Shown here: positions 2,276 to 27,362 of the stretch, in pieces
How the letters are laid out: each line of letters starts with the position of its first letter
How positions within the stretch are numbered: the first letter of the stretch is position 1
DNA from: an uncultured Lamprocystis sp.
Lineage (GTDB): Bacteria; Pseudomonadota; Gammaproteobacteria; Chromatiales; Chromatiaceae
Reading direction: 5' to 3'
Assembly (NCBI RefSeq): GCF_903933125.1
Contig: NZ_CAIZIZ010000505.1
Location: 1 to 35,130, forward strand
Length of the DNA stretch: 35,130 nt
Made by a program: the position numbers and the translations under genes
Notes under the pieces: generated by a model
The model's input: the letters and a program-made list of their open reading frames with translations, nothing else
The model's database searches: none
Told to the model about the DNA's origin: nothing

Positions 2276-2766
2276 GAGAGTCTCCCAAGGATTGGTTGCG
2301 AGGCGATGTCGGCGCGCTGCCGACGCGGGTCTGCGGTCGTATCCCGAGGCGCGAATCATAACCCGAGCGCATGATGATCGGCGTCCGCTGGGCCACGCGT
2401 TTTCGCGGCGGGGGACAGTGCAGCAATTCCGTAATGCCGCGAGGCGTTCGATCACATCGGGCGAAATCCTGGGGCTCGGCGATCACGATCTCGGCGACGT
2501 GCGGTCTGAGTCTGGACGCAACGCAAAGGCATGGTGTCTCCTAACCGTGCTCTACCTCACGGTTCGTGACCCCGGCTACATGGTAAAAATGCTGACATGG
2601 GGGTTACCGGCGCAATCACCGGTCAATTCCACCGTCCTGGCCTACGCGCCCCGGTGTATTATCCCGATGCAAGCCCCAAACACATGCCCAGATCGCCATC
2701 ACCGCGGATCAGCGGTGCCGCGGGCCGCAACGCCCGCCAGCGACCGCAAGGAGTGACGCCAAGCCC
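2276..2766. other. Intergenic region between divergent flavoprotein gene and defence operon
   Basis: 491 bases without a convincing gene. It must hold the promoters of both the flavoprotein gene (leftward) and the defence operon (rightward). Visible items are the operator-like palindrome at 2543-2564, a TATTAT -10-like hexamer at 2657-2662 without a convincing -35, and AAGGAG at 2748-2753, which is 13 bases before the first ATG of the operon. No repeat element was seen. Confidence 0.6.
2543..2564. promoter_or_regulatory. Operator-like palindrome upstream of the defence operon
   Basis: AACCGTG at 2543-2549 and CACGGTT at 2558-2564 are perfect 7-base inverted arms separated by 8 bases. A second, overlapping short palindrome, TCACG-GTT-CGTGA, covers 2557-2569. 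The geometry suits a dimeric helix-turn-helix repressor. It lies about 200 bases before the first gene of the operon. No regulator gene is encoded next to the operon, so a binding protein cannot be named. Confidence 0.35.
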
Positions 2767-3720
2767 ATGGTCTCCATCGCCCCCAACCATAAGTCGCTGG
2801 AGTACCGCTTCGACCAAGTGTCCTTCGGCCGCCATCAGACCTTCCATCTGCGCTACGCCTGGCTGACCAAGGGTTTCCAGGCGATGAGCGCCGACCCCCG
2901 CGCCTTCGACGGCGACGAGTCCACGGTGACCCTGGGCGTTGGCAAGAACATGGTGGTCGCCATCCACTACTGGCTCCAGGCGACTCGCATCGCCGAGCGC
3001 AGGCCCGCGGGGCTCTGCCCCACCGCTCTCGGTCAGGCGGTGTTCGCGGAGGACGGGCTCGACCCTTATCTGGAAGACGAGGCCACGATCTGGCTGATCC
3101 ATTGGCTGCTTGCCACCAACGGCGCCCAGGCGACCGTCTGGCGCTGGTTCTTCAATCACTTTCACCAGGCCGAGTTTTCGCTGCCCGAGGCCGGCAACGC
3201 CCTGACCCGCTTCGTCCAGGAGCGGCTCGGTAACAAGGCGCCGCCCAAGACCATGGTCAATGACCTGCGCATCCTCCTGCGCATGTACGAGCCGTCCGCC
3301 GTCGGCCCCCGTGTCCCCCTGGAGGATGCGCTGGACTCGCCCCTCTCCGTACTCGGGTTGATGCGCGCGCTGCCTGAGTCCAATCGCCACCGCTCCGCCG
3401 CCGAGGAGCGGGATGGGCCACCCGACGGCATCTTCGGCTACGCGATCACGGATTTGTTCGACCAGATTGGCCTGCGCACCCTGCCGATCGGCGAATTGAT
3501 GTACGGACGCCCCGGGTTCCCCGCGCTCGGCGCCGTCTTTCGCCTGACTGAAAATGCCCTCATCACCAAGCTGGAGCGGATCATCCGCTGCCTCCCCGGA
3601 CGCTTTGCCCTGCGCGAACAGGCCGGGGTCCATCAACTCTACAGTCTGCGCGACGCCATCGATCCCATGGACTACCTCCGCTCCCACTACCGCAGGGGCC
3701 AGCCGGCCAACACCCGATGA
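2767..3720 (+). CDS. DUF4007 family protein (copy 1), first gene of BREX type 4-like operon
   Basis: 317 residues, soluble. The N-terminal SFGRHQTFHLRYAWL and LGVGKNMVVAIHYW (about 19-33 and 56-69), and then PYLEDEATIWLIHWLL (about 100-115), are the pattern I associate with DUF4007. These proteins are found beside PAPS-reductase/DndC-like genes in phosphorothioation-type and BREX type 4 loci. The segment around 60-95 reads like a winged helix, so DNA or target recognition is a reasonable guess. It shares motifs with the second DUF4007 gene at 7965-8822. The ATG at 2767 is the only in-frame start in this region that fits; AAGGAG is 13 bases upstream, an unusually long spacing. The stop overlaps the start of the next gene (ATGA), so the two are translationally coupled. 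Biochemical function is unknown. Confidence 0.82.
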   Translation: MVSIAPNHKSLEYRFDQVSFGRHQTFHLRYAWLTKGFQAMSADPRAFDGDESTVTLGVGKNMVVAIHYWLQATRIAERRPAGLCPTALGQAVFAEDGLDPYLEDEATIWLIHWLLATNGAQATVWRWFFNHFHQAEFSLPEAGNALTRFVQERLGNKAPPKTMVNDLRILLRMYEPSAVGPRVPLEDALDSPLSVLGLMRALPESNRHRSAAEERDGPPDGIFGYAITDLFDQIGLRTLPIGELMYGRPGFPALGAVFRLTENALITKLERIIRCLPGRFALREQAGVHQLYSLRDAIDPMDYLRSHYRRGQPANTR

Positions 3721-6700
3721 GCCTGCAAGAGCGCATCAGCGTCAACGCCCACTACACCCGCTCCGCCAACCTGGAGCGTGACATCGACTCACTCGACGGT
3801 GTGGAGACCTACATTCCGACCGCCCGCAGCCTGGACACCCTGGGCCGCATCCTCAACGGCTTCGACGCTGCCGAAGCACCCCGCGCTTTCTCGCTCGTCG
3901 GACCCTACGGTGTCGGCAAGTCATCCTTCGCCGTCTTTCTCTCCCACCTACTGGGCGACGAGACCTATGACACCGGTGCGGCGGCCAGGCGTGTACTGAC
4001 CCGGTTCGATCAAGGGTTGGCCGGGCGCTTCTCGACATTAGGCGCCGACTCCGCCGGCCACTGCTGCGTCTTGCTCACCGGAAGTCCGGAGCCCCTCTCC
4101 GAACGACTCGCCACCGCCCTATTCCACGGGGCCAACGAGTTCTGGCGCGATCGAGGCCGTCGCCCCGCCATTTTGGGTACCCTCGAAGCCTTGGCTCAGG
4201 GCGGACGCCTGCGCCCCAGCGACGTCAGGCCGGTGATCGGTCAATTGCAGGCCGCCATTGCCCAAGCGAAGGGTAACGGTCTGCTCCTGATCATCGACGA
4301 ACTGGGCAAGTTCCTGGAGTACGAGGCCCGCCACGGCACCAACGACATTTTCCTCCTGCAGGCCCTGGCCGAGCACGCCGTCAGTCGTCAGGGGGTGCCG
4401 CTGAACCTCGTGGTCTTGCTCCACCAGTCCTTCGAACAATATGCACAGCGTCTCGGCGAGGCCCTGCGCAACGAATGGACCAAGGTTCAAGGGCGCTTCG
4501 AGAACATCGCCTTCCTGGACCCGGCTGACCAGACCCTGCGCATCGTTGCCGCCGCTTGTCGCCAACGACTCGACGCGGATGAACTCGCCCTGGTGCGGCG
4601 CAAGTCCGCGCAGGCCGCCGCCGCGCTCCAGGCGGAAGGTGCCCTGCCCGCGTCACTGGACCTCACCGCAGCGACGGACCTGCTCGCCTCCTGCTACCCG
4701 CTTCACCCGGTCGCCGCCCTGCTGCTCCCGCCGCTCTGCCAACGCGTCGCCCAGAACGAACGCACCCTGTTCAGCTATCTCGGCAGCCAGGAGCCCCACG
4801 GCTTCCGCGACAGTTTGACGCGCCTCGACCGAGTCGGCGACCGCATTGCGCCCGCGGAAATCTACGATTACTTCATCCTCAACCAGCCTGCCGCCTCGAC
4901 CTCCCACCATACCCATCGCCGCTGGAACGAGGTGGTGACAGCGCTCGAACGTCTCGGCGACGCTCCGCCCGCGCAGATCGCCTTGCTCAAGGCCATCGGG
5001 CTGCTCAACATCATTGGCGCCCAAGGCAGCCTCAAGGCGTCCCCGTCGATCATCGCCCTGTGTGTCGGGGACGATGCCCAGCCCCTGATCGATGACCTGC
5101 TCGCCCGCTCGCTCATCCAATTCCGGCGTTTCAGCAATGAATACCGCGTCTGGGCCGGCAGCGATTTCGACCTCGAAGCTGAACTCGCCCGCGCTCGTGT
5201 CGAGTTCGGCGAAATCGACCTTGTGACCACCCTGGCAGAGCGTCCCCCGCCCCGCCCCCTGGTCGCCCGCCGCCACAGCATCGCCACTGGCACGCTACGC
5301 TGGTTTCAGCCCATTTACACGGATCTGGATCGTTGCCTTGACCTGGAGACCGACCCAACCGCTCCGCGCCTACTTCAAATCCTGGTGGATGAAGACGACG
5401 ACCAAGCCGAACTCACCCAGACCCTCCGTGCCTTGCCCACGGGCGATCTTGCCGTTGTGTGCGCCAACGCCGGTTTACTCCGGGAGGCCCTCATCGAGGT
5501 CCTGGCCGGTGAAACCCTGCGTCGACAAGCCCAGGGACTCCAAGGCGACCCGGTTGCCGAGCGCGAGTTGCGCGAGCGGCAGGGCATGGCCGAGCGGCGA
5601 CTGGAGCAGGAATTGTCCCAGGTTTTCGCGTGCCCAGGGGAGGCGCGTTGGTATTGCCAGGGCCGCGAGTTGCCGATCGGCGGTAAAGGCGACCTCCAAC
5701 GGAGCCTCTCGGCACTCCTCGATGAGCGCTACCGCCATGCGCCTGTGCTGCGTAATGAGCTGATCAACCGCGATCAGCCCTCCAGCCAGGCCGTGGCCGG
5801 TCGCAATAAGCTACTCGCCGCCATGTTCGAACACGCGGCCGAGAGCGACTTGTGCATCGACAAGTTCCCGCCCGAGAAGGCCATGTACCGCGCCCTGCTG
5901 CATGCCCCTGGACTGCATCGGCAAGAAGATGGCGTGTGGGGCTTTCACCGCCCGCCGCAGCCCGATACGTATCGCTTCGGTCCGGTATTTTCCGGCATCG
6001 ACGCGCAGTTGTTGGCCGACGAGGGCCGTCCGCTGGGTCTGACCCAACTCTTCGACGCGCTGAGCGCGCCGCCCTACGGCCTCAAGGCCGGCGTCCTGCC
6101 GATCCTGCTGATCGCTTACTACCTGGCCAATCAGCGCGAGATCGCCTTGTACGAAGACGACGTCTTCTGCCCCGCACCAGGCAACGAACATCTGGAACTC
6201 CTGGCGCGACGCCCCGAGCGTTTCGCCATCGAGCGCTTCCGCTTACAGGGCGGGCGTCTGGTGCTGTTTCGCAAATACCTGGAGACCATTGTCGGCCGGA
6301 TTCCGGAACCGGCGACCCTGCTCGACATCATCCGGCCGCTCGCCAAGTTCATGCGCACCCTACCGCCCTATACCCAAAGGGCCGTACACCTGAGCGACAC
6401 CGCCACGGCGATTCGCGACACCTTCCCACGCGCCCGCGGTCCGGCCGCCCTGCTCTTTGAGAACCTCCCGCGCGCCTGTGGCTTTGCCCCCATCGCCATC
6501 GCCGATCAGGACGAAGGCGGGATGGACGACTACCTGCGCACCCTGGTGGCGGGCCTGCGCGAGTTACGAGACGCCTATCCGGCAATGGTCGAGGAATTTG
6601 CGAAACAGCTTGCACGCGTCTTCGGCCTGGACGACGGCCTGCCGTTGAATGCCGTCCGTCAGGCATTGACCAGGCGCTTCGAAGGTTTGGAGCGCTATGC

Positions 6701-7121
6701 CAGTGAGGACCGTCAGGACTTGCGGACCTTCATTCGTCGCGTGAGCGCCGGTCACCACGAAGACCAGCCCTGGTTGGAATCCGTGATGACCCTGCTTGGC
6801 AAGACCCCGCCGGCGAAATGGTCCGACGCGCAACGTTTGCAGGCGTTCGAGTCCCTGAGCGATCTGACGGTACGCCTGCGCGATCTGGAGACCCTCGATC
6901 GCGCCGTAGCGGCCCGTCCAGCGCCAGACAACGAAGTTATCCTGCTGCGCAGCGTCTCCAGCAGCGCCGGTGAACAGCGCGGTAAGGTCGCCTATATCCG
7001 CCCCGAGCAACAGCCCCTGATCGACGCCCACGCTTTGCATCTCAGTCAGTTGCTTGCGAGGGTCGACAGCCGGGAGGTTCGACTCGCGATCCTTGCCCGA
7101 TTGCTGCAAACCGAGGAATAA
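3717..7121 (+). CDS. Large P-loop ATPase, BrxC/PglY-like (copy 1)
   Basis: 1134 residues. The Walker A motif GPYGVGKSS is at about 62-70 and the Walker B segment LLLIIDEL at about 189-196, followed by a conserved HQSFEQY element and the CYPLHPVAALLL motif near 326-337 with QNERTLFSYL just after it. These are also found, in the same order, in the BrxC/PglY-like protein at 9316-13011. After the AAA-type core comes a long helical C-terminal half. BrxC-type ATPases are required for BREX defence and modification. The start overlaps the preceding DUF4007 stop by 4 bases, which pairs the two products in a module. It could equally be described as a DndH- or DptH-like P-loop protein; the exact family name needs a profile search. 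GC content is high, like the chromosome. Confidence 0.78.
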   Translation: MSLQERISVNAHYTRSANLERDIDSLDGVETYIPTARSLDTLGRILNGFDAAEAPRAFSLVGPYGVGKSSFAVFLSHLLGDETYDTGAAARRVLTRFDQGLAGRFSTLGADSAGHCCVLLTGSPEPLSERLATALFHGANEFWRDRGRRPAILGTLEALAQGGRLRPSDVRPVIGQLQAAIAQAKGNGLLLIIDELGKFLEYEARHGTNDIFLLQALAEHAVSRQGVPLNLVVLLHQSFEQYAQRLGEALRNEWTKVQGRFENIAFLDPADQTLRIVAAACRQRLDADELALVRRKSAQAAAALQAEGALPASLDLTAATDLLASCYPLHPVAALLLPPLCQRVAQNERTLFSYLGSQEPHGFRDSLTRLDRVGDRIAPAEIYDYFILNQPAASTSHHTHRRWNEVVTALERLGDAPPAQIALLKAIGLLNIIGAQGSLKASPSIIALCVGDDAQPLIDDLLARSLIQFRRFSNEYRVWAGSDFDLEAELARARVEFGEIDLVTTLAERPPPRPLVARRHSIATGTLRWFQPIYTDLDRCLDLETDPTAPRLLQILVDEDDDQAELTQTLRALPTGDLAVVCANAGLLREALIEVLAGETLRRQAQGLQGDPVAERELRERQGMAERRLEQELSQVFACPGEARWYCQGRELPIGGKGDLQRSLSALLDERYRHAPVLRNELINRDQPSSQAVAGRNKLLAAMFEHAAESDLCIDKFPPEKAMYRALLHAPGLHRQEDGVWGFHRPPQPDTYRFGPVFSGIDAQLLADEGRPLGLTQLFDALSAPPYGLKAGVLPILLIAYYLANQREIALYEDDVFCPAPGNEHLELLARRPERFAIERFRLQGGRLVLFRKYLETIVGRIPEPATLLDIIRPLAKFMRTLPPYTQRAVHLSDTATAIRDTFPRARGPAALLFENLPRACGFAPIAIADQDEGGMDDYLRTLVAGLRELRDAYPAMVEEFAKQLARVFGLDDGLPLNAVRQALTRRFEGLERYASEDRQDLRTFIRRVSAGHHEDQPWLESVMTLLGKTPPAKWSDAQRLQAFESLSDLTVRLRDLETLDRAVAARPAPDNEVILLRSVSSSAGEQRGKVAYIRPEQQPLIDAHALHLSQLLARVDSREVRLAILARLLQTEE

Positions 7122-7137
7122 CCAGAGCATTCATGCG

Positions 7138-7905
7138 ATGAGCGAAAAACCCGTCAGGCACCTACTCGGACTTTCCGGCGGCAAAGACAGTGCCGCTCTT
7201 GCCATCTACATGCGCGACAAGATTCCCGATATGGAATATTTTTTCGCGGATACGGGCGCTGAGTTACCGGAAACCTTGGAGTTTATTGAGCGAATGGAGG
7301 ATTATCTTGGAAAGAAAGTTGTTCGCATTAACGCGGGCCGTGATTTTAATTATTACTTGAAGCTGCACGACAACTTCTTGCCCTCTGTAGATCAGCGGTG
7401 GTGCACGATAAATCTGAAAATAAAGCCATTCGAGCGATTCGTCGGAAACGACGAAGCGATCAGCTACGTTGGAATTCGCGCGGACGAGCCAGGTAGAAAA
7501 GGATATATATCGCGGAAACCCAACATCACCGCACGCTTCCCTTTCCGGGAAGATGGATTGGAAAAAAAGGATATCCTGCGAATATTAGAAGACGCGGGAA
7601 TAGGGCTACCGGATTACTACAAATGGAGAAGTAGGTCTGGCTGTTATTTTTGCTTTTTCCAGCAGAAACATGAGTGGTTGGGTCTCTATCGCGAGCATCC
7701 TGAGTTATTTGAGCTTGCCAAGACATACGAGAAGTACGATGAAGAGACCGGCGAGCGGTATACTTGGTCGCAGCGGGAGTCGCTGGACGAGTTAATTGCA
7801 AGAGCCAGCGAGATTTCAGAGCAGCCAGCAAAACAGGAGAAAAAAACATGGACCGATCTGGTGGCGGAAGATGAGGGTGACGGCTGCCCATATTGCTTCA
7901 AATAG
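7138..7905 (+). CDS. brxP: PAPS-reductase-family / DndC-like sulfurtransferase, BrxP type
   Basis: 255 residues, about half the length of DndC. The PP-loop SGGKDS is at 13-18 and binds ATP to adenylate or activate the substrate. Cysteines occur as WC89T, C169-YF-C172 and a terminal C250-PY-C253. The first three resemble the Fe-S ligands of PAPS reductases and DndC; the C-terminal CPYC could be a further metal or redox pair. In Dnd systems this protein class inserts sulfur into the DNA backbone, and a PAPS-reductase-domain protein is the marker of BREX type 4. I therefore infer a sulfur-based self mark on DNA. No DndA desulfurase is encoded here, so IscS or similar may supply sulfur. The open frame extends upstream, but ATG 7138 gives the family N-terminus; it lies 16 bases after the ATPase stop. 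GC is much lower than in flanking genes. Confidence 0.82.
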   Translation: MSEKPVRHLLGLSGGKDSAALAIYMRDKIPDMEYFFADTGAELPETLEFIERMEDYLGKKVVRINAGRDFNYYLKLHDNFLPSVDQRWCTINLKIKPFERFVGNDEAISYVGIRADEPGRKGYISRKPNITARFPFREDGLEKKDILRILEDAGIGLPDYYKWRSRSGCYFCFFQQKHEWLGLYREHPELFELAKTYEKYDEETGERYTWSQRESLDELIARASEISEQPAKQEKKTWTDLVAEDEGDGCPYCFK

Positions 7906-7964
7906 ACTGGATCATGTCCGAGGTATTGGTTTAGGAACGGTTAACCCTCTGGAGTTTGACGATT

Positions 7965-8822
7965 ATGGCGCTGATCGACACTCAGACTTTCCCATTAACC
8001 AAGCAACGACTGATTACCGCCTTAGCCTTTATTCCGAACGAACCAGACGTCTTTAGCTCAAGCAACATGCGCAAGACAAGGGTGGCGTTCATATCAGGGA
8101 AGAATGTCTTGTCTTCGATCCGCGGATGGCTGCTCGCAGCAAGTGTTATCACTAATGACCGATCCCAGTATTATTTAACTGATTACGGAAAACGACTTTT
8201 CGCAAACGATTCAAGAATGGAGAAGGCTGCCTCCTGGTGGAGCTTCCATCTTAGCATTTGCTTCTCCGAGCGCTGTGAACCTTACAGAGCGCTTTTTTAT
8301 GTCGTCGGGGAGAGTGGAGGCTATGTGATTCAGGACGATACCTTGATCTCAAAAATTGCCGCCATCCTTGATGACCATTCAGGGCTCGGCGCTGCAAACG
8401 CTTCCATAGAAACAAATCTGTCCGGTGTGCTCAAAATGTTTATGGGCGACAGCCCACTCTCTGACCTCGGGCTTTTCGATATACTCGAAGAGGACAACAA
8501 GCGGCGATTGCGATTAGCAGAACCTAGTGTACCCGATCAGGCAATTGTTCACGCGCTTGCCCTCGCTCGCCAAAAACATTTCCCAACGCGTGTGACTGTG
8601 CACTTCTCGGAGCTTATAGAGCTTGGCTTTCACCACTTTCTCTGCTTGCCTCTCAGCACCCTACGCAAGCGCCTCCGTGAGCTTTGCAAGTCATCGGTAT
8701 GGCAGCAACATTTAGAGTTTCTCGAAGGGCAGGATCTGGACTCCATTCGTTTTGGGGATCGACTGAACGCTAACCAGACGCTGCTCAATCTGTTGCAAGA
8801 ATCCGAAGACACTTGGATCTGA
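7965..8822 (+). CDS. DUF4007 family-like protein (copy 2)
   Basis: 285 residues. SGKNVLSSIRGWLL (about 44-57) aligns with VGKNMVVAIHYWLQ of the first DUF4007 protein. The following YYLTDYGKRLFANDS aligns with CPTALGQAVFAEDG, and the region reads like a winged helix (Y-x-LT-x-x-G-x-x-LF). I therefore call it a divergent DUF4007 paralogue, although overall identity is low. ATG 7965 is preferred because GGAG lies 10 bases upstream; an upstream TTG at 7956 is too close to that site. It follows the sulfurtransferase gene after 59 bases and shares its low GC and its use of codons such as ATA and AGA, so these two genes probably have a common origin distinct from the rest of the operon. Its stop overlaps or abuts the next gene. 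Confidence 0.7.
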   Translation: MALIDTQTFPLTKQRLITALAFIPNEPDVFSSSNMRKTRVAFISGKNVLSSIRGWLLAASVITNDRSQYYLTDYGKRLFANDSRMEKAASWWSFHLSICFSERCEPYRALFYVVGESGGYVIQDDTLISKIAAILDDHSGLGAANASIETNLSGVLKMFMGDSPLSDLGLFDILEEDNKRRLRLAEPSVPDQAIVHALALARQKHFPTRVTVHFSELIELGFHHFLCLPLSTLRKRLRELCKSSVWQQHLEFLEGQDLDSIRFGDRLNANQTLLNLLQESEDTWI

Positions 8823-8833
8823 TGGGGACAGAC

Positions 8834-9319
8834 ATGGACCGCAAGCAGCTCAATCTGGCGCTACAAGCCTTCTTCACCGCTTACCGCTCGGCGCGCTATC
8901 AGGGAATAGTCATCACCGTACCATCGGAGTCCCATCTGGCGTTGTTGTGCGGCCAGATCGAGGCCATCCTCTTGGAACACGACATTTGGCAACAACCCGG
9001 CATGGGGTGTGCCCCTAACATTCCGTGTGGGAGGCGCGATTTCATGGACGCCGTCTTCCTGCCGCGACCGCGGGGCTTGGTCATCGTCTCCCCGATGGAA
9101 TGGATGATCGATTGGCCTGAACAGGATCAGGCCACCCTGTGGACCGGCATCGCGGACGCCTTCGGTCGACACGACATCCTGGGTTTGAGCGTTGCAACGC
9201 GCTCCGTGACCGCACAGTTGCGCGTGAGCCTTGCGGAACATGGCTTGCCCGGGGTTCCGGTCTCGGTATGGCTGTCGCGTCACCAACCGCTCGATCTCTT
9301 GGAAGGGGTACTGGCATGA
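8834..9319 (+). CDS. Small uncharacterised BREX-operon protein
   Basis: 161 residues, not recognised. There are no membrane segments or signal peptide. The middle segment RGLVIVSPMEWMIDWPEQDQ followed by a helix and GRHDILGLSVAT looks like a Walker-B-type beta strand plus sensor strand of a P-loop fold, but no GxxxxGK[ST] is present. It could be a degenerate ATPase or a distant counterpart of the small BREX protein BrxF; this is speculation. ATG 8834 has GGGGA about 6 bases upstream. ATG 8822, within TGATG overlapping the previous stop, is an in-frame alternative adding four residues. Its stop overlaps the brxC start (ATGA), so it is coupled to brxC and probably acts with it. Confidence 0.7.
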   Translation: MDRKQLNLALQAFFTAYRSARYQGIVITVPSESHLALLCGQIEAILLEHDIWQQPGMGCAPNIPCGRRDFMDAVFLPRPRGLVIVSPMEWMIDWPEQDQATLWTGIADAFGRHDILGLSVATRSVTAQLRVSLAEHGLPGVPVSVWLSRHQPLDLLEGVLA

Positions 9320-12300
9320 CCAGGCTATGTGATCTCGTGACGATTGACGGGACGCGCCGCAGCGCGGCCATACGACTGGACGACGGACTTTACGCGTGCG
9401 CCCCGGCATTGGTTGAGGCATTTACTCCCACCCGGTCATCGGTTGCAATCCTGACTCACTTGCAGAAGGCCGTCCTGCAAAACGCCCCCCAACAAAGCCG
9501 CGCCATGATCTGGCACGGGGTCTATGGCTCCGGCAAGAGCCACTTAGGCGTGTTGGTGGGTGAGTTGCTGCGTCATGGTATCGGCACCAGCGCCATGCAG
9601 GGATTTTTGGATCGCCTCAATAATCAGGGAGAGTCCCGACTGTGCGACGCGCTGAAGACCACCTTCCATGCATCAGACGACCAGGATGCCCGGCCCTATC
9701 TCGTGGTGCCACTTTATGGATCTCCTGCACCAACGTTGCAGAACGCCCTGCTTGAGGGGCTGTATCGCGCACTACGTGATACGGACGGGCTCGATCCACA
9801 GACGATCATTCCGAAGACCGAATTCGCGGCGGCACTGGACCGACTTTCCGTCATCCTCGAGCACGAGCCGGACTATCGTTCCAAGCCATTATCACATTGG
9901 CAGATTCACAGTGCGGCGTTCAACCTGGAGGAATTGAAGACACAGCTTGATGGATTTGTCCCTGAAGCGCTGGAAGCCTTCAAGGACTGGCACCCCAAGG
10001 TCTCGGCGGGGCATCGATTCGATCCGCAGGCATTGGGCGGCATGGGTGTGGCTGATGCCTTCCGCGAGGCCGGCGCGGCACTGGCCCAGAACCATGGGTA
10101 CAACGGCATCGCAATCATTTGGGACGAGTTCGGTTACGCCCTGGAAAATTTGCTCAATCAGCATCAGCGCAATCCAGTTGCGGAAATTTTTGGCCTTCAG
10201 AATTTTGTCGAAACCGCCTGCGCCCCATCCAGGGGTCACACCTTGTTTATGGCTCTGACACACAGATCCTTACGCGAGTATGGCACCATCACTCAGGCCA
10301 GCGACGATGTGAAGAATCGTCTGGAGACGATCGAGGGCCGCTTTGGCGGGTTCCCTGTCGCACTCAAGAGTTCAGAGACCGAAGGCTATCATCTGCTTAG
10401 TGCCATGGTCGCACCGACCGAAGCGGGCGCAGTTCTGTTGGGGCAGGCGCGGCCCCGTGCCGAATGCCTTGCCCAAGTGTGCGCGAAGATGCCTTTATTT
10501 ACGAGTCTGGCCGCCGAGCTTCAGGATATCGTGACGGGCTGCTATCCATTGCATCCCGTGACCGCCGCCGGCCTATTCGCCATCGCAGCCCATGGTGTCT
10601 ATGCCCAAGCGAACCGTACGGTCTTCACCTTCTTCCAAAACCTGGAAGCGATTACTGCCGGCGCTTGTTTAGAGCGCGCCGCGACGGCGGATGCGCTGTA
10701 TGGGGCAGAGTTGATTCGCTTGCCGGAACTACTCATGGTTTATCGTAAGGAGGTCTTTGAAGAATATCCGGGTCTCGCGGATGCGTATAAACACGCGGCC
10801 GCCACTGTTGTACAGGGGTTTCCTGAGCCGCGACGTCCCAAGTACGATATTCTGGGCGTGCTGTTGCTTGCACGCGTGCTCGGCGAGCAGTTCCAGCCAA
10901 CGGACAGCTTTCTCGCTGCCGCGCTGTACGACGCCGAGACAGCACCTTTGGCGCTCATGCAGGATCTGGAGGCCCTGCACCGGGCGGGCTTGATTTGGCC
11001 ACGGGAGACGGACATCCGGGTTTGGGAGTTGGAGTCGGAAAGCGGTACTCAGATCGAGCCGCTGATTGCGGAAGGGCTGGCGCAACTGCAGTCACGCACT
11101 ATCACCGGCTATTTCCAATACCACCCCGACCTTTTGCAAGATCTGTTACCACAGTGCAGGACTCATGATCTCGATCCCTCTCCAGCCGGGATCGTACGAT
11201 CATTCGAGGTCCGCCTGCTCCCGGACGACCTGACGGATAGGGTGGCGCCCACGCCTAAAGATGAACGTATTTCGGCGTTGATCCTGTTATTGATGCTGAC
11301 AGACGAGCGGCAGGCCGACCAGGCCATCGCTCACTGCGATGCGATGCAAGCGCCGCGTACCATGACCTACGTCTGGATCCCCCGCCGTGGTCTGCGGGAT
11401 TTGATCGAGCCGCTGCGCCGCTACATTGTCATCGCGGGGCTGTTGAAGCAGCAGGCGGCGGGGGAAGGACTGTCGCGTCGGCTACGAAATGAATGGGACA
11501 AGATCCGTAGGCTCCTGCGCACTGTGATCAATGAACGGCTCGGGCGGGTCGCGTTGGAGCGCGGCGATGTGACCATCAAGCGCCTTGGCGACTCGGATGA
11601 GCAGGTCAGCGTGACCAGCTGGCACGCATTCACCGATTATCTGGAAGTTCGGGTGCAGGCTTTGTATCCCAAGGAGATTATGGTGCGGACGATGAACGTC
11701 AATCGTCTGTACAGCCCGGATGAGCGCAAGATCACGCGGATCGAGAATTTGCTGCGCAACATTCTTCACTTCGATGACCTTCCACCGGATTTACGCAATG
11801 ACCTCTTCGGCGAAGGCGTCGGCAGTGAGGCCGCTGCGTTGATCGACGGCACATTGGGGGTCTACAGCAACGGACTCCTGATCGAGCGCGGCGATGGCTG
11901 GGGTCTGAAAGCACCGGATGAGGCCGTAGGCCCAGTGGGTGAGCTGTTGCGTCTGATCCGCGATACGGTGCTAGACAAGCGGCGCAAGTCTTGTGAGATC
12001 GCCGACTTACGGGCGACGCTGATCGCGCCGCCCTTCGGCCTGCCTGTCATGGTGATGCCGGTATTCACCGCGGTCGCCATCCGCAAAGACGCGGGGCGCT
12101 TGAAGTGGGTCAACCGGACGGGAGCCTTCGAGTCCTTACTCTGGGACGCCTTCAGCGCCGGCACGGCGATGAAGTTGCGCTTTGATACGTTCACACCGAA
12201 GCAGCGCGAAGTCTTGGATGCCTTGAGCGACCTACTACGATTGCCGTTATCGGCCGCGCGCGATCCGGACGAGAAGGGGCACGGTGCGGTCTCCGGCCTG

Positions 12301-13011
12301 CGCTCTTATTACGCCGATCTGCCCGAGGCGGTCAAAGGGTCTGCGAAGCTATCCGGCGCTGCACGCGATCTCTTTCAGGTTCTCAGGAAGCCTGGACTGG
12401 ACGCCCAGGATGTGGCTAACGCGCTGGTCGACTTAAGCAAAGGCGCGGTGGATGGGGAGCAGATTCGCGCGAAACTGCGCGAGCTGTTCGATGCCATCGC
12501 GTCCATCACGGACGAGCGTGCGGCGGCGGTGCATCAGGTCATCACAACCGCGCTGAGCGAACAGGACAAAAAACAACGCATCATCGGATCACTCCGGAAA
12601 CAGGAACGACACAAGTTGATCGAAGCGCTGGAGCGCGTCGAATCGGGCGCAGCGGAAGCCTTGTCCGCGGTAGCCCAGAGCATGATCGGCAAGGCGTTGG
12701 ATCAATGCAGCGACATTGAAGTTGGAAGCCTGAAAAGCGACCTGCAACGGCTGCTTGAAGAGGCGGCAACGCCTGAGCCCGTGCGTCTACCTGATCTGCC
12801 TGTGCCCGACCGCGTAGCGACGCCAAAGGCCACCATCTACTCACCACCGGTGATCCCCGGCCCGAGCACCGAAGAGGAGTTCAGGCAAGAGCTGGCCGCA
12901 CTGATCGACCGTTACCTGGTCGCACTGGATGCCAAGAAGCTGGCCGCGCTCCTTACCGGGCAGATGGAAACGCTTGGCAGCCCCGCTGCTGCTGCCAGCC
13001 ACAGGAGCTAG
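9316..13011 (+). CDS. brxC: BrxC/PglY-like P-loop ATPase (copy 2)
   Basis: 1231 residues, the usual size for BrxC/PglY. Walker A GVYGSGKSH is at about 68-76, in the form typical of the family, and Walker B IAIIWDEF at about 265-272. THRSLREYG follows, then GCYPLHPVTAAGL at about 408-420 with ANRTVFTFF, both shared with the ATPase at 3717-7121. The C-terminal third is helical and charged. An upstream extension of the frame exists, but ATG 9316 overlaps the previous stop and matches the expected N-terminus. BrxC ATPases form the assembly hub of BREX complexes; in type 4 systems it is expected to work with PglZ and BrxL. GC is intermediate between the AT-richer middle genes and the GC-rich ends of the operon. 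Confidence 0.85.
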   Translation: MTRLCDLVTIDGTRRSAAIRLDDGLYACAPALVEAFTPTRSSVAILTHLQKAVLQNAPQQSRAMIWHGVYGSGKSHLGVLVGELLRHGIGTSAMQGFLDRLNNQGESRLCDALKTTFHASDDQDARPYLVVPLYGSPAPTLQNALLEGLYRALRDTDGLDPQTIIPKTEFAAALDRLSVILEHEPDYRSKPLSHWQIHSAAFNLEELKTQLDGFVPEALEAFKDWHPKVSAGHRFDPQALGGMGVADAFREAGAALAQNHGYNGIAIIWDEFGYALENLLNQHQRNPVAEIFGLQNFVETACAPSRGHTLFMALTHRSLREYGTITQASDDVKNRLETIEGRFGGFPVALKSSETEGYHLLSAMVAPTEAGAVLLGQARPRAECLAQVCAKMPLFTSLAAELQDIVTGCYPLHPVTAAGLFAIAAHGVYAQANRTVFTFFQNLEAITAGACLERAATADALYGAELIRLPELLMVYRKEVFEEYPGLADAYKHAAATVVQGFPEPRRPKYDILGVLLLARVLGEQFQPTDSFLAAALYDAETAPLALMQDLEALHRAGLIWPRETDIRVWELESESGTQIEPLIAEGLAQLQSRTITGYFQYHPDLLQDLLPQCRTHDLDPSPAGIVRSFEVRLLPDDLTDRVAPTPKDERISALILLLMLTDERQADQAIAHCDAMQAPRTMTYVWIPRRGLRDLIEPLRRYIVIAGLLKQQAAGEGLSRRLRNEWDKIRRLLRTVINERLGRVALERGDVTIKRLGDSDEQVSVTSWHAFTDYLEVRVQALYPKEIMVRTMNVNRLYSPDERKITRIENLLRNILHFDDLPPDLRNDLFGEGVGSEAAALIDGTLGVYSNGLLIERGDGWGLKAPDEAVGPVGELLRLIRDTVLDKRRKSCEIADLRATLIAPPFGLPVMVMPVFTAVAIRKDAGRLKWVNRTGAFESLLWDAFSAGTAMKLRFDTFTPKQREVLDALSDLLRLPLSAARDPDEKGHGAVSGLRSYYADLPEAVKGSAKLSGAARDLFQVLRKPGLDAQDVANALVDLSKGAVDGEQIRAKLRELFDAIASITDERAAAVHQVITTALSEQDKKQRIIGSLRKQERHKLIEALERVESGAAEALSAVAQSMIGKALDQCSDIEVGSLKSDLQRLLEEAATPEPVRLPDLPVPDRVATPKATIYSPPVIPGPSTEEEFRQELAALIDRYLVALDAKKLAALLTGQMETLGSPAAAASHRS

Positions 13012-13013
13012 GC

Positions 13014-15350
13014 GTGTCCATGGCCGTACGCATCATGGTCGATGATCTGGGCCTCTGCCAGGCCGAGGACGCCGAAGCCGTCTTGTCCCCGGAGGTGGCC
13101 GCGCTCCACGCCGTCCGGGAGCGTATCCGCCATCGTCTGCGCGCCCCTGAGCCCACACCCTTGGTCCTGCGCATGTCATCGGCGATCTTCCGGCGCTTCG
13201 CGGACCTGGAAGGACAACCGGGGCTGGTGGTCCAGCGCCTCTCGCCCCGGCGTGCCCTGCGCGAGCGGTTGGGCTGCCCGCTGCCCCCATGGCTGGGCGA
13301 CGAACTGATCGCCTTGCTCGGAGCGTTTCCCGAAGACCGCCGGGCAGCGGGCGCGGAGACCGACCCCACGGACCGGGTCCTGATGCTCATCAACTTGGCC
13401 CAGGCGCAAGCCCCCGACACGGCGTCCATACTCGGCGCCCTGTCCCAACAGGCGCCCGAGATGAATGCCTTACTGGCTGTCCCGCAGGTGCGGCAACGGC
13501 TCCAGGAACGGTTCGAGTCGACTGGGATCGCTGCTGCGACGGAACTGCTGGCCCTGTTTGTGGATGGTCCGCCAACGCCCAGGGAGGCGTATCGCGTCCT
13601 CGCTCTGGCGGTGGTGCGCGAGCGCCTGGACGAGCTGATCGCTCGCGATGGTTTGTCCGCGGAATCTGCTCTGCCGCCGCGCCTTTGCTCTCGCAATCTG
13701 GTGCGCCAACTACCCCGGTTACCGGTCGCGGAGTCGGACGCGGCGCCTTATCCGGACCTGGTACGGCGCCTATTGCTTCAGGCCGAACGCAGGACCCACG
13801 ATGGGCTCCCGGTCCAGTCACTCGCCGACTATGTGGTGGCGGATTGGCCGGGGCTGTGCGAGTGTCTCCAGGCACTGTTCGAGCAAAACCCAGGGATCGC
13901 CAGTGCGCCCTTGGTCCTGGCGCTCAGCGACCCCCTGATCAATCACACCGGAGTCCTCGCCAGGGACCTGGCCGTGCGTATGCAGGAGTATCTGGCCCAT
14001 GCCCATTGCGACCCGCTGCCGCGCGATGCCTCGGTGAACGAGGTCATGCGCTGGAGCGAACGCTATTTCCGGTATGCGATCGGCACCTTCGAACGTCATG
14101 CGGAACCCGACGCAGCGGTCGGTGTCAGTTTCGCCCGCTGGGTGACGGAAGAACAAACGCGCATCATCCAGTCTGAACACGACTGGCGGGTGGTCGCACG
14201 CACGGTGGAACAGGAACTGGCCGGCGGGAACCTGGTGATTCTCTGTGTTATCGACGCCTTAGGCGCCATCCATACGGACCTGGTGGAGTTGGAGTTGCGG
14301 CAACGGCTGGCGGATCAGGCCGCACCGGTTATCAAGACGCTCTTCGCCCCCCTGCCCACGATCACCGAGGTGGGTAAGATCGGGGTCTTGACCGGATGGG
14401 ATAGGGCCAGCTCAACGGCGGATTATGAAAGGGCACTGCGCGAGCGTTTCGCGGACCAGCTTGCCGCGCCCGAGTCGTTACAGATCGTCAAGAGTTGGAA
14501 AGACTTCCACGAAGCGCTGCGGCCGGGAACTCGACTCCTGGTGTGTCTGGACAATCGGGTGGACGACGACCTCCATCAATGCACGGAATTTCGTCTGCAT
14601 CGCGAGCGGGTGCGTACGGTTGCCGCGCAACTCGCCGGGCTGATCGTCGATTGGCAACTCGACGCCGCGCGCTTCGGTCTGAAGGCGACCATCATGATCA
14701 CGGCCGATCATGGCGCGACCAAGGTCTCGCACAGCCGTCAGCCACTGCCCGGCACCACCCCGGTTGAACGCCGTTTGCTTCAGGTCGCCGCGGCGCCTGA
14801 GTCCGTTCCGGCTGGATTCGCCTACGTTGGGGCGGACACTGCGGGTGGCGGCTGGCTAATCCCGCATGAGCGGGTTGCGTTCGGATCGACCGCGACCCTG
14901 CTGCATGGGGGGCTGACCCCCGAGGAGGTGTTGATCCCCTTTATCCTGATCACTCGGGACGGCGCGGGGTCTGCGGTGGCGCTACGTCTGTCGGCAGCCG
15001 AGTCGCGTTGCCACGCGGCAACCAAGGGCTGGCACGCGACCCTCTGTCTTGAAAATTCGACGAATGACAGCTTCTTCAATCTGAAGGTCGTCGCCCGTCC
15101 ACCCTTTGCCGGAGAGGGTCAGTTGATCGCCCGTCTCGGTTCCTACGAAACGCTACCGGAGATCATCCTCAAGCTCACGTCGACTGTCGAGCAGCAGGGC
15201 AAGACGCAAGTACCCTTCGAACTGCGCTACCAAACCGGGAGTCAGGCGTCCTATGAGCACTTGTCGTTCCACCTGGATTTAGACCTCGGCGTGCACCTGA
15301 TCGAACACACCGCTGCCGCCCGCGAGTTCGACAATTTCTTCGATCTCTGA
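13014..15350 (+). CDS. pglZ: PglZ-domain BREX phosphatase-like protein
   Basis: 778 residues. The alkaline-phosphatase-superfamily PglZ domain occupies roughly 405-650. VIDALGAIHTDL contains the metal-binding D414, PTITEVGKIGVLTG lies near 447-460, TADHGATK has D565 and H566, and LLHGGLTPEEVLIPF has H631. The usual DALR-Y-D form of the first motif is DALGAI here, so one conserved arginine is replaced. The 400-residue N-terminal part is helical and BREX-specific. GTG 13014 is chosen because AGGAG is 6 bases upstream; it begins 2 bases after the brxC stop. PglZ is present in every BREX type, is required for modification and defence, and its true substrate is unsettled. Confidence 0.92.
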   Translation: MSMAVRIMVDDLGLCQAEDAEAVLSPEVAALHAVRERIRHRLRAPEPTPLVLRMSSAIFRRFADLEGQPGLVVQRLSPRRALRERLGCPLPPWLGDELIALLGAFPEDRRAAGAETDPTDRVLMLINLAQAQAPDTASILGALSQQAPEMNALLAVPQVRQRLQERFESTGIAAATELLALFVDGPPTPREAYRVLALAVVRERLDELIARDGLSAESALPPRLCSRNLVRQLPRLPVAESDAAPYPDLVRRLLLQAERRTHDGLPVQSLADYVVADWPGLCECLQALFEQNPGIASAPLVLALSDPLINHTGVLARDLAVRMQEYLAHAHCDPLPRDASVNEVMRWSERYFRYAIGTFERHAEPDAAVGVSFARWVTEEQTRIIQSEHDWRVVARTVEQELAGGNLVILCVIDALGAIHTDLVELELRQRLADQAAPVIKTLFAPLPTITEVGKIGVLTGWDRASSTADYERALRERFADQLAAPESLQIVKSWKDFHEALRPGTRLLVCLDNRVDDDLHQCTEFRLHRERVRTVAAQLAGLIVDWQLDAARFGLKATIMITADHGATKVSHSRQPLPGTTPVERRLLQVAAAPESVPAGFAYVGADTAGGGWLIPHERVAFGSTATLLHGGLTPEEVLIPFILITRDGAGSAVALRLSAAESRCHAATKGWHATLCLENSTNDSFFNLKVVARPPFAGEGQLIARLGSYETLPEIILKLTSTVEQQGKTQVPFELRYQTGSQASYEHLSFHLDLDLGVHLIEHTAAAREFDNFFDL

Positions 15351-15418
15351 ACTCATGATCGAGACTGGAGTTTTACTGGCGACTGGCGTTATCAGGGTGA
15401 CATCAAGAGTGAGTGACT

Positions 15419-16831
15419 ATGGCGATTATCACTGATCTGGACTTTAAGATTGTCGAACTTCTCGGCGATCTGACGATCGACAAGGAGCGGGTACGTAATC
15501 TCCACATTCGCGAGGCACGGACCGTGACGACGTTCGTCGAGGAGTGGCTGGTATCACGTTATGAACGGCCGGACAAGAAAGACGACGCGGTCTATCAGGA
15601 AATCACGGCTTTCATGACCCAACACCTGCCCACCAAGACCGAAAAAGAGGGCCTCAAGAATCGGATCGTCAATGGTGACTCAGTGGTCGTTCTCGATCGC
15701 TTCACCGTGCGCGTCGATGTGTCCAAGGGTAAGCGCTTGGTCAGCATCCCCTGTCTAGACGAGAGTCGGGCCGAGGCCAGCAATGTCCTCTTAGATGAGC
15801 ATCCCGGCCTTCTGAGCGGAGGCCAGTGGGGAGCCGGTCGACTCGCACTGCGATCGGACGGCAAAGACCGCAACGTGATCGAGTTGATCGAGTTTCGACC
15901 TATGCAATCCGGTCAGGTCCGCTTGCAGGCCCTGATCGATGCCCGCCAAGGATTCGATACCGAAGAATGGCTGAGAGTGCTGATTCGCACCATGGGCTAT
16001 GAGCCTGAAGCCTATAGCGAGAACCAGCGGCGGAACCTCGTTCTGCGGCTGCTACCCTTGGTGCAAAAGAACTTGAACATGATGGAACTGGCACCTAAGG
16101 GAACCGGTAAGTCATTCGTTTTTTCTAATCTGAGTCGCCACGTCTGGCTCAACAGCGGCGGGGCCTTGACCCGAGCGCAACTGTTCAAGAACCTGAGTAC
16201 GCGGGAGGAGGGTTTGCTCGCCCGCTTTGACCTACTGGTTTTGGATGAGGGTCAGTCCATCGAGTTCAAGGGGGAGAGCGACATCCATGCTAAGTTCAAG
16301 GATTACCTGGAGTCCGGCCATTACACGATCGGCCATGATAAGATTACCAGCGAGTGCGGCTTGATGGTCCTGGCAAATATCGAGTTGGACTACCGCGGAT
16401 TGCCAACGCGGCCTGATTTCATACGCCAGTTGCCCGAGATGTTCCATGACGACGCGCTGCTCGACCGCTTTCACGGTATCGTGGCCGGGTGGAAGATTCC
16501 ACGCATCACCAACGCCCATTTCGCCCAGGGGCCGGGCATCAAGGCTGATGTCTTCGGCGAGTATGCGCACCAGATCCGTACCGCCAGTTCAGCGATTTTT
16601 CCCTATGGCCAGGTGCCGTCGCTGCAAGGCGACACCCGTGACTCCAAGGCCATTGAGCGGTTAGCGCGGGCGTTGTCACGGCTGTTCATGCTGAATCCGG
16701 AGCACTCCGATTACGATGACTACGTTCTCAAGCCCGCTATCGGACTGCGCGAGCGCGTCAGAACCCAGCTTGCGGCGTTGAATCCAAGTGAGTTCTCACC
16801 GCAGGTCAAGATCGAGGTCGCCGATCATTGA
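15419..16831 (+). CDS. brxL: BrxL, short form lacking the Lon protease domain
   Basis: 470 residues. The Walker A motif APKGTGKSF is at 225-233 and the Walker B segment LLVLDEGQ has D276 and E277, in the AAA+ arrangement of BrxL. An N-terminal region of about 200 residues precedes it. Long BrxL proteins of type 1 systems are close to 700 residues with a C-terminal Lon-like domain; this one ends at VKIEVADH with no Ser-Lys protease region, matching the short BrxL subfamily. BrxL forms ring complexes that act on DNA and is needed for phage restriction in some BREX systems. ATG 15419 is preferred; GTG 15413, two codons upstream, is an in-frame alternative. It lies 68 bases after pglZ and is the last gene of the operon. 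No strong terminator follows. Confidence 0.88.
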   Translation: MAIITDLDFKIVELLGDLTIDKERVRNLHIREARTVTTFVEEWLVSRYERPDKKDDAVYQEITAFMTQHLPTKTEKEGLKNRIVNGDSVVVLDRFTVRVDVSKGKRLVSIPCLDESRAEASNVLLDEHPGLLSGGQWGAGRLALRSDGKDRNVIELIEFRPMQSGQVRLQALIDARQGFDTEEWLRVLIRTMGYEPEAYSENQRRNLVLRLLPLVQKNLNMMELAPKGTGKSFVFSNLSRHVWLNSGGALTRAQLFKNLSTREEGLLARFDLLVLDEGQSIEFKGESDIHAKFKDYLESGHYTIGHDKITSECGLMVLANIELDYRGLPTRPDFIRQLPEMFHDDALLDRFHGIVAGWKIPRITNAHFAQGPGIKADVFGEYAHQIRTASSAIFPYGQVPSLQGDTRDSKAIERLARALSRLFMLNPEHSDYDDYVLKPAIGLRERVRTQLAALNPSEFSPQVKIEVADH

Positions 16832-17005
16832 TCATGCTGACGGTTCTGCGCCGGGTTGCGCAATGCGCACGGCGGCGGACGGCGGCTCACGCGGGAGTGG
16901 TTCAGCGTATGCTGTCACGCTGAGCGAATCCGGTTGCAACGCAAGCTGACGGCTGATCGCTGACCGCTTTTTTCCATACTTATTTTTTCAAAGGGGTAAA
17001 TGTCA

Positions 17006-17638: not shown

Positions 17639-17650
17639 GCCTGGCGGGCC

Positions 17651-17771
17651 TCGATCAAGATTCCGGCCACTTGGACTCGCCGGGTGCGTAGTCAGGCCAT
17701 CCTGGCCTGAGATCGTCAGGGCTGGAAGCCCTGACTACGCACGCCGCTGGCCGGGATTACGATCAAGGCCG
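17651..17771. repeat. MITE-like palindromic element, copy 1
   Basis: 121 bases. The ends carry imperfect terminal inverted repeats (GATCAAGATTCCGG and, on the other strand, GATCGTAATCCCGG, 10 of 14) and the 8-mer CGATCAAG occurs near both ends in direct orientation. The core is a cloverleaf: an outer stem GTGCGTAG/CTACGCAC enclosing two hairpins, TCAGGCCA-TCC-TGGCCTGA and GTCAGGGCT-GGA-AGCCCTGAC, whose loops TCC and GGA are complementary. The second copy at 18405-18516 is nearly identical, in the same orientation, and lacks 9 bases near the left end. This copy supplies the stop codon of the methyltransferase at 17763. Confidence 0.9.
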
Positions 17772-18353
17772 CCTGGCGCGGCGCAGGACCACGGTGAAGT
17801 CTTCACGCAGATAGCCGGTCTCGATGGCGCAGACGGCCCCCAGGTCCTGGGCGAGGGCGAGCATCTCGTCCGGTTCCCAGTAGTTGAAGGTGTCGCAATC
17901 GTCGAGGCCGCGGAGCAGGTTGAAGAGAAAGCCGCCGCGCGAGGCCGCCAGACAGCGCGCGATGAATTGCCGGGTCTCATCGCGGGTGAAGGTGTTCATG
18001 GCGCCGCTGCAGACGTAGTAGTCGGCCTCCGGCAGTGGGTCTTGCAAGGCGTCGAGCAGCAGGATTTCCTGGCGCGTGCGGGCGCGGGCGAGTTCGACCA
18101 TGGGGGCGACCACGTCGATGCCGAGATAACGTCCCGGCAGTGCCCCTGCCGATTTCAGGTAGGTATAGAAGTCGCCCATGCCGCAGCCGACATCGACCAG
18201 GGTCAGGTCGGCCGGATCCGCGGGCAGCAAGCGGCGCAGCACATCGAACCGGACGCGTTGGGTGTGCGCCGATTCCCAATGGGCGCCCTCGGCGTTATGG
18301 CCGTAGCGCTCCAGTGCCAGACGGTAGAAGGCGTCGGTGTCGACTCTGGGCAT
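17763..18353 (-). CDS. Class I SAM-dependent methyltransferase
   Basis: 196 residues. Motif I, LVDVGCGMGDFYTYL, at about 52-66 binds S-adenosylmethionine. The acidic end of the next strand is in YLGIDVVAPMVELARA and a motif IV-like segment is YYVCSGAMNTFT. It resembles small-molecule or tRNA-type Rossmann methyltransferases; the substrate cannot be told. ATG 18353 gives a normal N-terminus; the open frame extends upstream into repeat DNA and is unlikely to be translated. The ribosome binding site is weak. The gene is bracketed by two direct copies of the MITE-like element, one providing its stop codon and the other lying about 50 bases before its start. It is not linked to the defence operon. 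Confidence 0.85.
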   Translation of the reverse strand: MPRVDTDAFYRLALERYGHNAEGAHWESAHTQRVRFDVLRRLLPADPADLTLVDVGCGMGDFYTYLKSAGALPGRYLGIDVVAPMVELARARTRQEILLLDALQDPLPEADYYVCSGAMNTFTRDETRQFIARCLAASRGGFLFNLLRGLDDCDTFNYWEPDEMLALAQDLGAVCAIETGYLREDFTVVLRRARRP

Positions 18354-18404
18354 GGGGCTTGGCCTGTGCGGCTCTGATGAAACCGCGTGATTGGCGAATT
18401 GGCA

Positions 18405-27312: not shown

Positions 27313-27362
27313 GCCGCCCGGTTCAACATTTCTTCTCGTCGCATCATTACCCGGAGCTTTTC

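Follow-up and report, generated by a model that had tools for sequence, protein, structure and literature searches.

A probable two-module, phosphorothioation-based and BREX-like defence island in an uncultured Lamprocystis

Introduction

Bacteriophage exclusion (BREX) systems based on phosphorothioation are already known, and Yuan et al. have reportedly, according to citing papers, described phosphorothioation for type 4 BREX (BREX-4). In the sections of PMC12839542 drawn on here, type 4 BREX is composed of BrxC/SspC, a 3'-phosphoadenosine-5'-phosphosulfate (PAPS) reductase, DUF4007, PglZ, BrxL and a desulfurase; an iSTAND/BrxB part occurs in 64% of type 4 systems, an iSTAND-PglZ fusion has been counted in 292 of 457 taxa, and BrxB is characterized as a fast-evolving, Walker-less AAA+ protein. 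The present analysis concerns an eight-gene operon in a stretch of 35,130 nucleotides from an uncultured Lamprocystis sp. of the Chromatiaceae, presumably a purple sulfur bacterium (contig NZ_CAIZIZ010000505.1, forward strand), and this whole stretch is called the window. The operon is likely to be a phosphorothioation-based, BREX-like defence in two modules, in which SspB, SspC and SspD (SspBCD) would mark self DNA and a core of five further proteins would attack unmarked DNA, and as judged from sequence the eight-gene island is probably directed against viruses.

Two further systems serve as points of reference. In the excerpts of PMC8092258 considered here, SspBCD makes single-stranded phosphorothioates, sspBCD has worked together with iscS, and most sspBCD of one survey have been found without an adjoining sspE or sspFGH. 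For type 1 BREX, the available part of PMC13326643 states that BrxB, BrxC and PglZ are required for modification and restriction alike, and that BrxB is an inactive AAA+ protein which bridges BrxC and PglZ via the 98 N-terminal residues of PglZ.

Organization of the Operon

The eight open reading frames (ORFs) of window 2767-16831 are intact, all open, all on the + strand and tightly packed (Table 1). The SspB and SspC genes overlap by 4 bases (3717-3720), as do those of the small protein and BrxC2 (9316-9319), DUF4007b and the small gene share 1 base, and the other intergenic gaps amount to 2-62 bp, the widest (62 bp) lying between PglZ and BrxL, which bears out the tight coupling proposed in a preliminary description made from the letters of this DNA. 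The likelier start codons are at 7138 for SspD, 7965 for DUF4007b, 8822 or 8834 for the small gene and 9316 for BrxC2. All eight proteins have been scanned with Pfam, PADLOC and NCBIfam models, by which genes 1-3 are a complete predicted SspB-SspC-SspD phosphorothioation writer and genes 4-8 a predicted methylase-free, BREX-like effector core. The second DUF4007 protein, the second BrxC-like ATPase and the short BrxL of the preliminary description have been recovered in these scans, and its small gene of unknown family is present but matches none of the models; no DNA methyltransferase has been detected among the eight genes, as had been stated there for PglX, and the type 1 BREX PglX methyltransferase has no match in genes 1-8. 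Its suggestion of two modules with a phosphorothioate writer has likewise been borne out at the sequence level. Independent genomes show the same genes in the same arrangement, so the eight-gene set is not a chance assembly. A scan for promoters and terminators has returned no more than shuffled sequences give.

The Phosphorothioation Writer

SspB, the first DUF4007 protein, matches the solved structures 6juf/6lb9 at 1.2e-28, and the first ATPase, taken for a generic BrxC in the preliminary description, is an SspC by its model score (Table 1) and groups in the ATPase tree with SspC of other loci. The third gene carries a Pfam PAPS_reduct domain (1.2e-11) and reaches 360 bits with the PADLOC SspD model as opposed to 39 with BrxP and about 22 with DndC; DndC, to which it had been likened, is therefore ruled out, and SspD takes its place. 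A metabolic PAPS/APS (adenosine-5'-phosphosulfate) reductase has also been ruled out, the score with the phosphoadenylyl-sulfate reductase model being 25.5 bits at a cutoff of 154, so that the protein does not group with the metabolic enzymes, in agreement with the earlier proposal. The best solved relative of SspD is chain C of PDB 21fy, named 'PptA' (7e-09), and a literature search on the system of that entry has returned nothing relevant.

No cysteine desulfurase gene is linked to the operon in the window. The own genome has three matches to the SspA (desulfurase) model, one of them in an isc-like operon, the model being unspecific and also positive in 13 of 14 control genomes. Next to the best of these matches stand a 173-aa ORF before it, which we take to be IscR, and a chaperone-like ORF after it, presumably HscA.

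The BREX-Like Core

DUF4007b matches the PADLOC SspB model weakly (58 bits) and is linked to SspB by hhalign at 96%. BrxC2 fits the SspC model weakly (Table 1) as compared with 22 bits for the BrxC models, has no match to the NCBIfam BrxC model, and is linked to SspC at 98.6% (hhalign); its Walker A motif is GVYGSGKS and its Walker B motif IIWDEFG, and GxYGSGKS and WDEFG are invariant across 6 aligned sequences. The window PglZ has no PADLOC match and only a weak NCBIfam BREX_PglZ_4 match (39 bits, cutoff 140), yet its core motifs align with those of other PglZ, which upholds its earlier naming: in an alignment of 8 PglZ, which takes in those of Thermomicrobium roseum, Annamia, Pseudanabaena and Abditibacteriota, the residues D414, PT(x)T(xxx)K 448-455, D517, H521, DHG 565-567 and HGGL(x)PEEV 631-639 are invariant. 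In a low-confidence model, PglZ begins with about 100 residues of alpha/beta structure, continues with a helical part and the core, and ends in a C-terminal beta part, and this layout suggests a resemblance to the type 1 PglZ as described in the consulted part of PMC12839542, with no obvious extra N-terminal iSTAND in the model. BrxL is recognized by Pfam BrxL_ATPase (4.5e-89), PADLOC BrxL (355 bits) and, above the cutoff of 329, NCBIfam TIGR02688 (365.7 bits), and it matches the solved BrxL 8emc at 9.5e-53.

The small protein has no Pfam, PADLOC or NCBIfam match. Its AlphaFold model, built on 8 sequences, is an alpha/beta fold of moderate confidence (pLDDT, the predicted local distance difference test, 77.6; pTM, the predicted template modelling score, 0.76), and AAA+ or ORC/Cdc6 proteins make up most of the Foldseek matches, with E values from 0.01 upwards and helicase RadD in the top row. 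The gene in the corresponding position of an Abditibacteriota plasmid encodes a Walker A motif (GPPLSGKS) and a Walker B-like motif (IVVDEFD), with Pfam AAA_33 under cutoff, and when the small proteins are aligned, Abditibacteriota ERFRAFILHGPPLSGKS stands opposite window ARYQGIVITVPSES, a difference that may be read as loss of the P-loop in the window protein. Since fold and position fit the published traits of BrxB, this would be the best-fitting role for the small protein.

Two ATPase Groups and Exchange of Modules

A tree has been calculated from the N-terminal parts of the ATPases (23 rows, or 24 with the Methanosphaera BrxC). The SspC-position proteins of Chromatiaceae, the proteobacterial genome G249, Pseudanabaena and T. 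roseum form one clade (100/99), the sister of which is the Azospirillum SspC from an SspFGH-like locus. All BrxC2 lie outside the SspC clade in two groups, T. roseum with Pseudanabaena and Proteobacteria with Abditibacteriota, and do not form a single clade themselves. The tree has several long branches, and its backbone is open once the Methanosphaera BrxC is added. As the tree parts SspC from all BrxC2, a recent duplication as the origin of the two ATPases is ruled out.

Protein identities to the window, given as best BLAST pieces with Thiocystis SspB, G249 SspC and Thiocapsa BrxC2 as cut rows, differ strongly between the parts of the operon. For Lamprocystis, SspB/C/D are 92/82/90%, DUF4007b/small protein/BrxC2/PglZ 66/66/66/68% and BrxL 93% identical; in the same order, the values are 40/43/62, 66/57/63/64 and 82% for Thiocystis, 42/44/68, 65/50/59/57 and 80% for Thiocapsa, and 46/48/77, 38/22/36/27 and 63% for G249. 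BrxL is among the slowest-changing proteins in all comparisons. Because these identities run out of step between relatives, the SspB/SspC pair varies independently of DUF4007b, the small protein, BrxC2 and PglZ.

Insertion of the Island

In Lamprocystis purpurea DSM 4197 (G510), the flanks meet directly on contig C179, without window 2392-16837, and the operon is also missing in the same-genus genome G511, whose flanks are separated by about 290 bp of other sequence. The operon-free site has been observed in these 2 of the 7 other genomes of the genus, both flanks being adjacent on one contig at 93-95% identity, and the remaining 5 have no long left-flank match. The operon is a clean insertion at window 2392-16837, and the only repeat found at the island ends is a 9-mer. 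Lamprocystis purpurea carries its own operon copy elsewhere, on contig C111. Because four of the core proteins are 66-68% identical as against 94% for the flank DNA, the window and Lamprocystis copies have probably not been inherited together; identity in the same comparison is 82-93% for BrxL and the proteins of the writer. The guanine-cytosine content is 48-50% at window 7201-8800, which covers SspD and DUF4007b, versus 64-66% on either side of the island, hinting at a different source for both genes.

Related Loci

A single-sequence search with BrxC2 has found 3 of 369 genomes of the class at 1e-10, the own genome included; G249 is matched over residues 1-1160, and G076 holds a distant relative in a different locus. 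A BrxC2 profile has hits in 10 genomes out of 210 from the order, all in one family, among them the own genome and G388, the latter with a short remnant only. The PglZ profile has matched the own genome alone among 398 drawn from the phylum, and the BREX_PglZ_4 model has given weak matches in 3 of 299 genomes including the own, none above cutoff. A single-sequence scan for BrxC2 in named relatives, which reaches close relatives only, has confirmed 6 loci among 51 candidate stretches, all from Chromatiaceae (two Thiodictyon, Lamprocystis, two Thiocystis and Thiocapsa; genomes G512, G510, G372, G513, G477 and G375, each counted once). A 160-aa ORF of G388 (L036:9663-10142) with a 48-residue BrxC2 match is apparently a decayed copy.

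Besides the window, nine proteobacterial loci have been gathered, namely L007, L008, L009, L010, L011+L037, L012, L034 (G523), L020 (G415) and L005+L038 (G249). All eight genes stand in order in L008, L010, L034 and L005+L038, the BrxC2 of L010 containing an in-frame stop; the eight genes of Thiocapsa are split across two contigs, L012 SspB is cut at the stretch end, and contig ends truncate L007, L009 and L020. Further genes have been observed between those of the operon: L011 has one of family PF04754, L005 has one that looks transposase-like by eye, and a Thiocystis metagenome-assembled genome (L012:4135-7197) has four ORFs between SspC and SspD, of which one is PIN-like by eye and one, of 441 aa, has no Pfam match. 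In Thiocapsa marina, a class V aminotransferase, which is desulfurase-like, lies about 0.6 kb upstream of SspB. Among viral contigs, none has been confirmed with the PglZ and BrxC2 profiles (42 and 67 candidate stretches, respectively), and tblastn against plasmids has found no match for the window PglZ and small protein and 8 records for BrxC2, all partial and below 60% identity.

The layout extends to other phyla. A plasmid of T. roseum (L043) encodes SspB, SspC, SspD, DUF4007, a 166-aa protein, a 1401-aa ATPase, PglZ and BrxL, followed by a cysteine desulfurase; SspB, SspD and SspA score 303, 368 and 511 bits in PADLOC, the small protein and the second ATPase have no PADLOC match, and the profile links to the window family are 97.6% for BrxC2 and 96.8% for PglZ. 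Identity to the window is 20% for PglZ, 22% for the second ATPase (one 409-column piece) and 10% for the small protein, which has been assigned by place and size only. In Pseudanabaena (L044/L045), DUF4007 and a 1200-aa ATPase of the SspC clade are followed by a PemK/MazF toxin gene and its small neighbour on the opposite strand, and then by a 372-nt gene, PAPS reductase, Uma2, DUF4007, a 142-aa protein, an 1803-aa ATPase, PglZ, BrxL and a desulfurase. Annamia (L041) has DUF4007, a 117-aa protein, an interrupted ATPase, PglZ, BrxL and a desulfurase-type protein. On the Abditibacteriota plasmid pIAD-21 (L026), the genes are those of an Eco57I-type methyltransferase, DUF4007, a 161-aa P-loop protein, a BrxC-like ATPase, PglZ and BrxL, such that the methyltransferase (1119 aa; Pfam 1.5e-22; PADLOC DrmMI 287 bits) stands in place of SspBCD before the five-gene layout; hhalign links its BrxC-like protein and PglZ to the window family at 98.8% and 98.6%. 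Directly before this methyltransferase, a protein with a sigma-70 region 4 domain is encoded (L026:26-1732).

Table 1. Position and basis of the features of the island in the window.
Feature	Position	Strand	Basis
Inserted island, probably of defence (operon and upstream region)	2392..16837		missing at the same site in relatives
SspB (DUF4007), putative DNA-recognition/nicking subunit of the phosphorothioation writer	2767..3720	+	Pfam DUF4007 3.5e-70; PADLOC SspB 271 bits
SspC, putative writer ATPase	3717..7121	+	PADLOC SspC 1335 bits, full model length; tree
SspD, predicted PAPS-reductase-family sulfur transferase	7138..7905	+	PADLOC SspD 360 bits
DUF4007b (second DUF4007), putative BrxA-like DNA-binding subunit	7965..8822	+	Pfam DUF4007 3.3e-17
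Small Walker-less AAA+-like protein, candidate BrxB (iSTAND)	8822..9319	+	AlphaFold model, Foldseek
BrxC2, second BrxC/SspC-type ATPase	9316..13011	+	PADLOC SspC 138.5 bits; Walker motifs
PglZ, predicted metal-dependent nuclease effector	13014..15350	+	invariant core residues
BrxL short form, AAA+ DNA translocase-like subunit	15413..16831	+	TIGR02688; structure match

Neighbourhood of the Island

Outside the island, a gene with a general methyltransferase domain lies on the minus strand (window 17763-18458). Window 17643-17773 holds a dispersed repeat, about 125 bp in length, which contains an inverted repeat (17679-17710 / 17716-17747). A query that includes it matches 85 times in the own genome and 82 times in Lamprocystis, and the majority of the matches listed fall on the repeat. 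Farther downstream, two Rap1a-type immunity-like proteins are encoded in tandem (window 26914-28074), and a UbiD-family decarboxylase and a pyruvate formate-lyase-type glycyl-radical enzyme on opposite strands (window 29571-34125).

Discussion

From the sequences we infer the following biochemistry, and with it how SspC and BrxC2 would share the work. SspB would find and nick a site, the SspC ATPase would drive the writer complex, and SspD would swap a backbone oxygen for sulfur on self DNA, the sulfur coming from a cysteine desulfurase encoded elsewhere. In the core, DUF4007b may supply DNA binding in the role of BrxA, the small protein as BrxB would join BrxC2 to PglZ by analogy with the type 1 BrxB-BrxC-PglZ arrangement, BrxL would translocate, and PglZ would nick unmarked DNA or stall its replication.

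It is unlikely that the locus is an ordinary type 4 BREX with accessory copies, whose one integrated complex would carry out marking as well as attack, with SspC and BrxC2 as subunits that can stand in for each other. The plasmid BREX-4 locus of Methanosphaera (L062) consists of BrxP, BrxC, PglZ and BrxL, four genes in a row, with a BrxP of 785 aa (BrxP model 818 bits; PAPS reductase and ferredoxin-like Pfam parts, no DUF4007), a sole BrxC of 1186 aa (BrxC model 813 bits, SspC 81) and a PglZ, annotated as BREX-4, that aligns with the window family over 88 columns only (90.8%). Of these features, the window shares BrxL and has no long BrxP (39 bits), no BREX-4 PglZ, its own lying below the cutoff, and no single BrxC; since Methanosphaera has a long BrxP, one BrxC scoring with other models and another PglZ subfamily, the window operon, although it would work like a phosphorothioation-based BREX, is a different layout, and the description as a type 4 BREX core plus extras is not supported. 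With E 1e-40 as the threshold, the BrxP model has no match in any of 398 genomes from the phylum, but it was positive in 2 of 14 controls. BREX-4 does also join a PAPS reductase, DUF4007, a BrxC/SspC homologue, PglZ and BrxL in the part of PMC12839542 used here, and the eight-gene locus seems to be counted already as BREX in PADLOC, with SspC taken as its BrxC: the T. roseum SspC, PglZ and BrxL match the PADLOC BrxC, PglZ and BrxL models at full length with 2632, 1742 and 1150 bits (about 2.4 bits per residue), and because of these full-length scores the models appear to have been built from this or a near-identical locus. Against interchangeable ATPases within one complex stand the separate tree groups of SspC and BrxC2 and the variation of writer and core out of step.

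Quite improbable is the presence of two unrelated systems side by side, with SspBCD acting alone or with other effectors beside a PglZ system blind to phosphorothioates, for the order of the eight genes of the window is repeated in T. roseum and in no fewer than four other proteobacterial genomes, and the set has been inserted as a single block; the survey in PMC8092258, as far as excerpted, in which most sspBCD have no sspE or sspFGH next to them, and the methylase-linked Abditibacteriota relative of the core speak in its favour. A second mark set by genes 4-8, with SspBCD being mainly regulatory, appears highly implausible, as no methyltransferase and no second sulfur enzyme are found in genes 4-8, even though BrxB, BrxC and PglZ of type 1 BREX are needed for modification too according to the portion of PMC13326643 cited above.

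Several observations weigh against the favoured reading of a phosphorothioating writer combined with a BREX-like core. The PglZ model is poor (pLDDT 60.5, pTM 0.34), Foldseek with the small protein has no row with an E value as low as 0.001 and lists no BrxB among the best 50, profile comparison has found no link between this protein and the small proteins of Abditibacteriota and T. roseum, and its assignment as BrxB is drawn from fold class, position, size and Walker loss. SspBCD may have another effector elsewhere in the genome, the effector scans being of operon proteins, and the own genome is BREX-rich, as six additional BrxC genes exceed the cutoff of the NCBIfam model (contigs C405, C205, C515, C249, C501 and C145). 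The methylase-linked Abditibacteriota locus is a single, distant case, and the DUF4007 protein there is matched by SspB but not by the DUF4007b profile (hhalign to DUF4007b 42%).

As a tentative and rather doubtful extension, the core might attack irrespective of the kind of mark and be combined with SspBCD, with an Eco57I-type methylase or with another SspBC lineage (Thiocystis, Thiocapsa), in which case self/non-self information would reach PglZ through the writer complex and not by the core reading one chemical mark. The methylase-linked relative offers a naturally swapped writer with which to ask how a BREX-like effector tells self from non-self. In type 1 BREX, BrxC serves marking and attack (PMC13326643, in the part consulted), hence the two jobs are hard to separate; because writer and core seem to have their own ATPases here, marking and attack could be cut apart genetically. 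A possible reason for the presence of iSTAND/BrxB in only 64% of type 4 BREX is that elsewhere it is maybe a separate, very fast-evolving small gene.

Comparison With Known Systems

Literature searches for SspBCD together with PglZ and for T. roseum with BREX have returned nothing, DUF4007 together with PglZ has led to PMC12839542 only, and the text of that paper that was searched holds nothing on two ATPases. Within the literature searched, no description of the two-ATPase, exchangeable-writer layout has been found, and what appears new here is a separate SspBCD writer with its own ATPase before a complete BREX-like core, recurrent across phyla, plus a methylase-linked relative.

The locus resembles type 4 BREX in that a sulfur-transfer enzyme replaces the methylase and a BrxC-type ATPase, PglZ, short BrxL and DUF4007 are present (PMC12839542, in the sections used), but it differs in its separate SspB, SspC and SspD, second DUF4007, second ATPase, stand-alone small protein and other PglZ subfamily. 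With SspBCD linked to SspFGH or SspE, it has the writer genes in common, and SspFGH is described in the cited excerpts of PMC8092258 as damaging unmarked DNA and harming cells without the mark; the effectors of the window are in contrast BREX-like (PglZ, BrxL, BrxC2). Among the operon proteins, the PADLOC rows contain no SspE family and Pfam no FtsK/SpoIIIE, SspF/SspG and the rest of the genome lying outside these searches, and the effector genes of an SspBCD-SspFGH-like locus of Azospirillum, among them FtsK/SpoIIIE, are quite unlike those of the window. With type 1 BREX (BrxA-B-C-PglX-PglZ-BrxL), the window has in common an A/B/C/Z/L-like effector set, in which DUF4007 replaces BrxA, whereas SspBCD replaces PglX. 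The T. roseum plasmid locus comprises the eight genes in the same order plus a cysteine desulfurase, although its PglZ, small protein and second ATPase have strongly diverged from those of the window.

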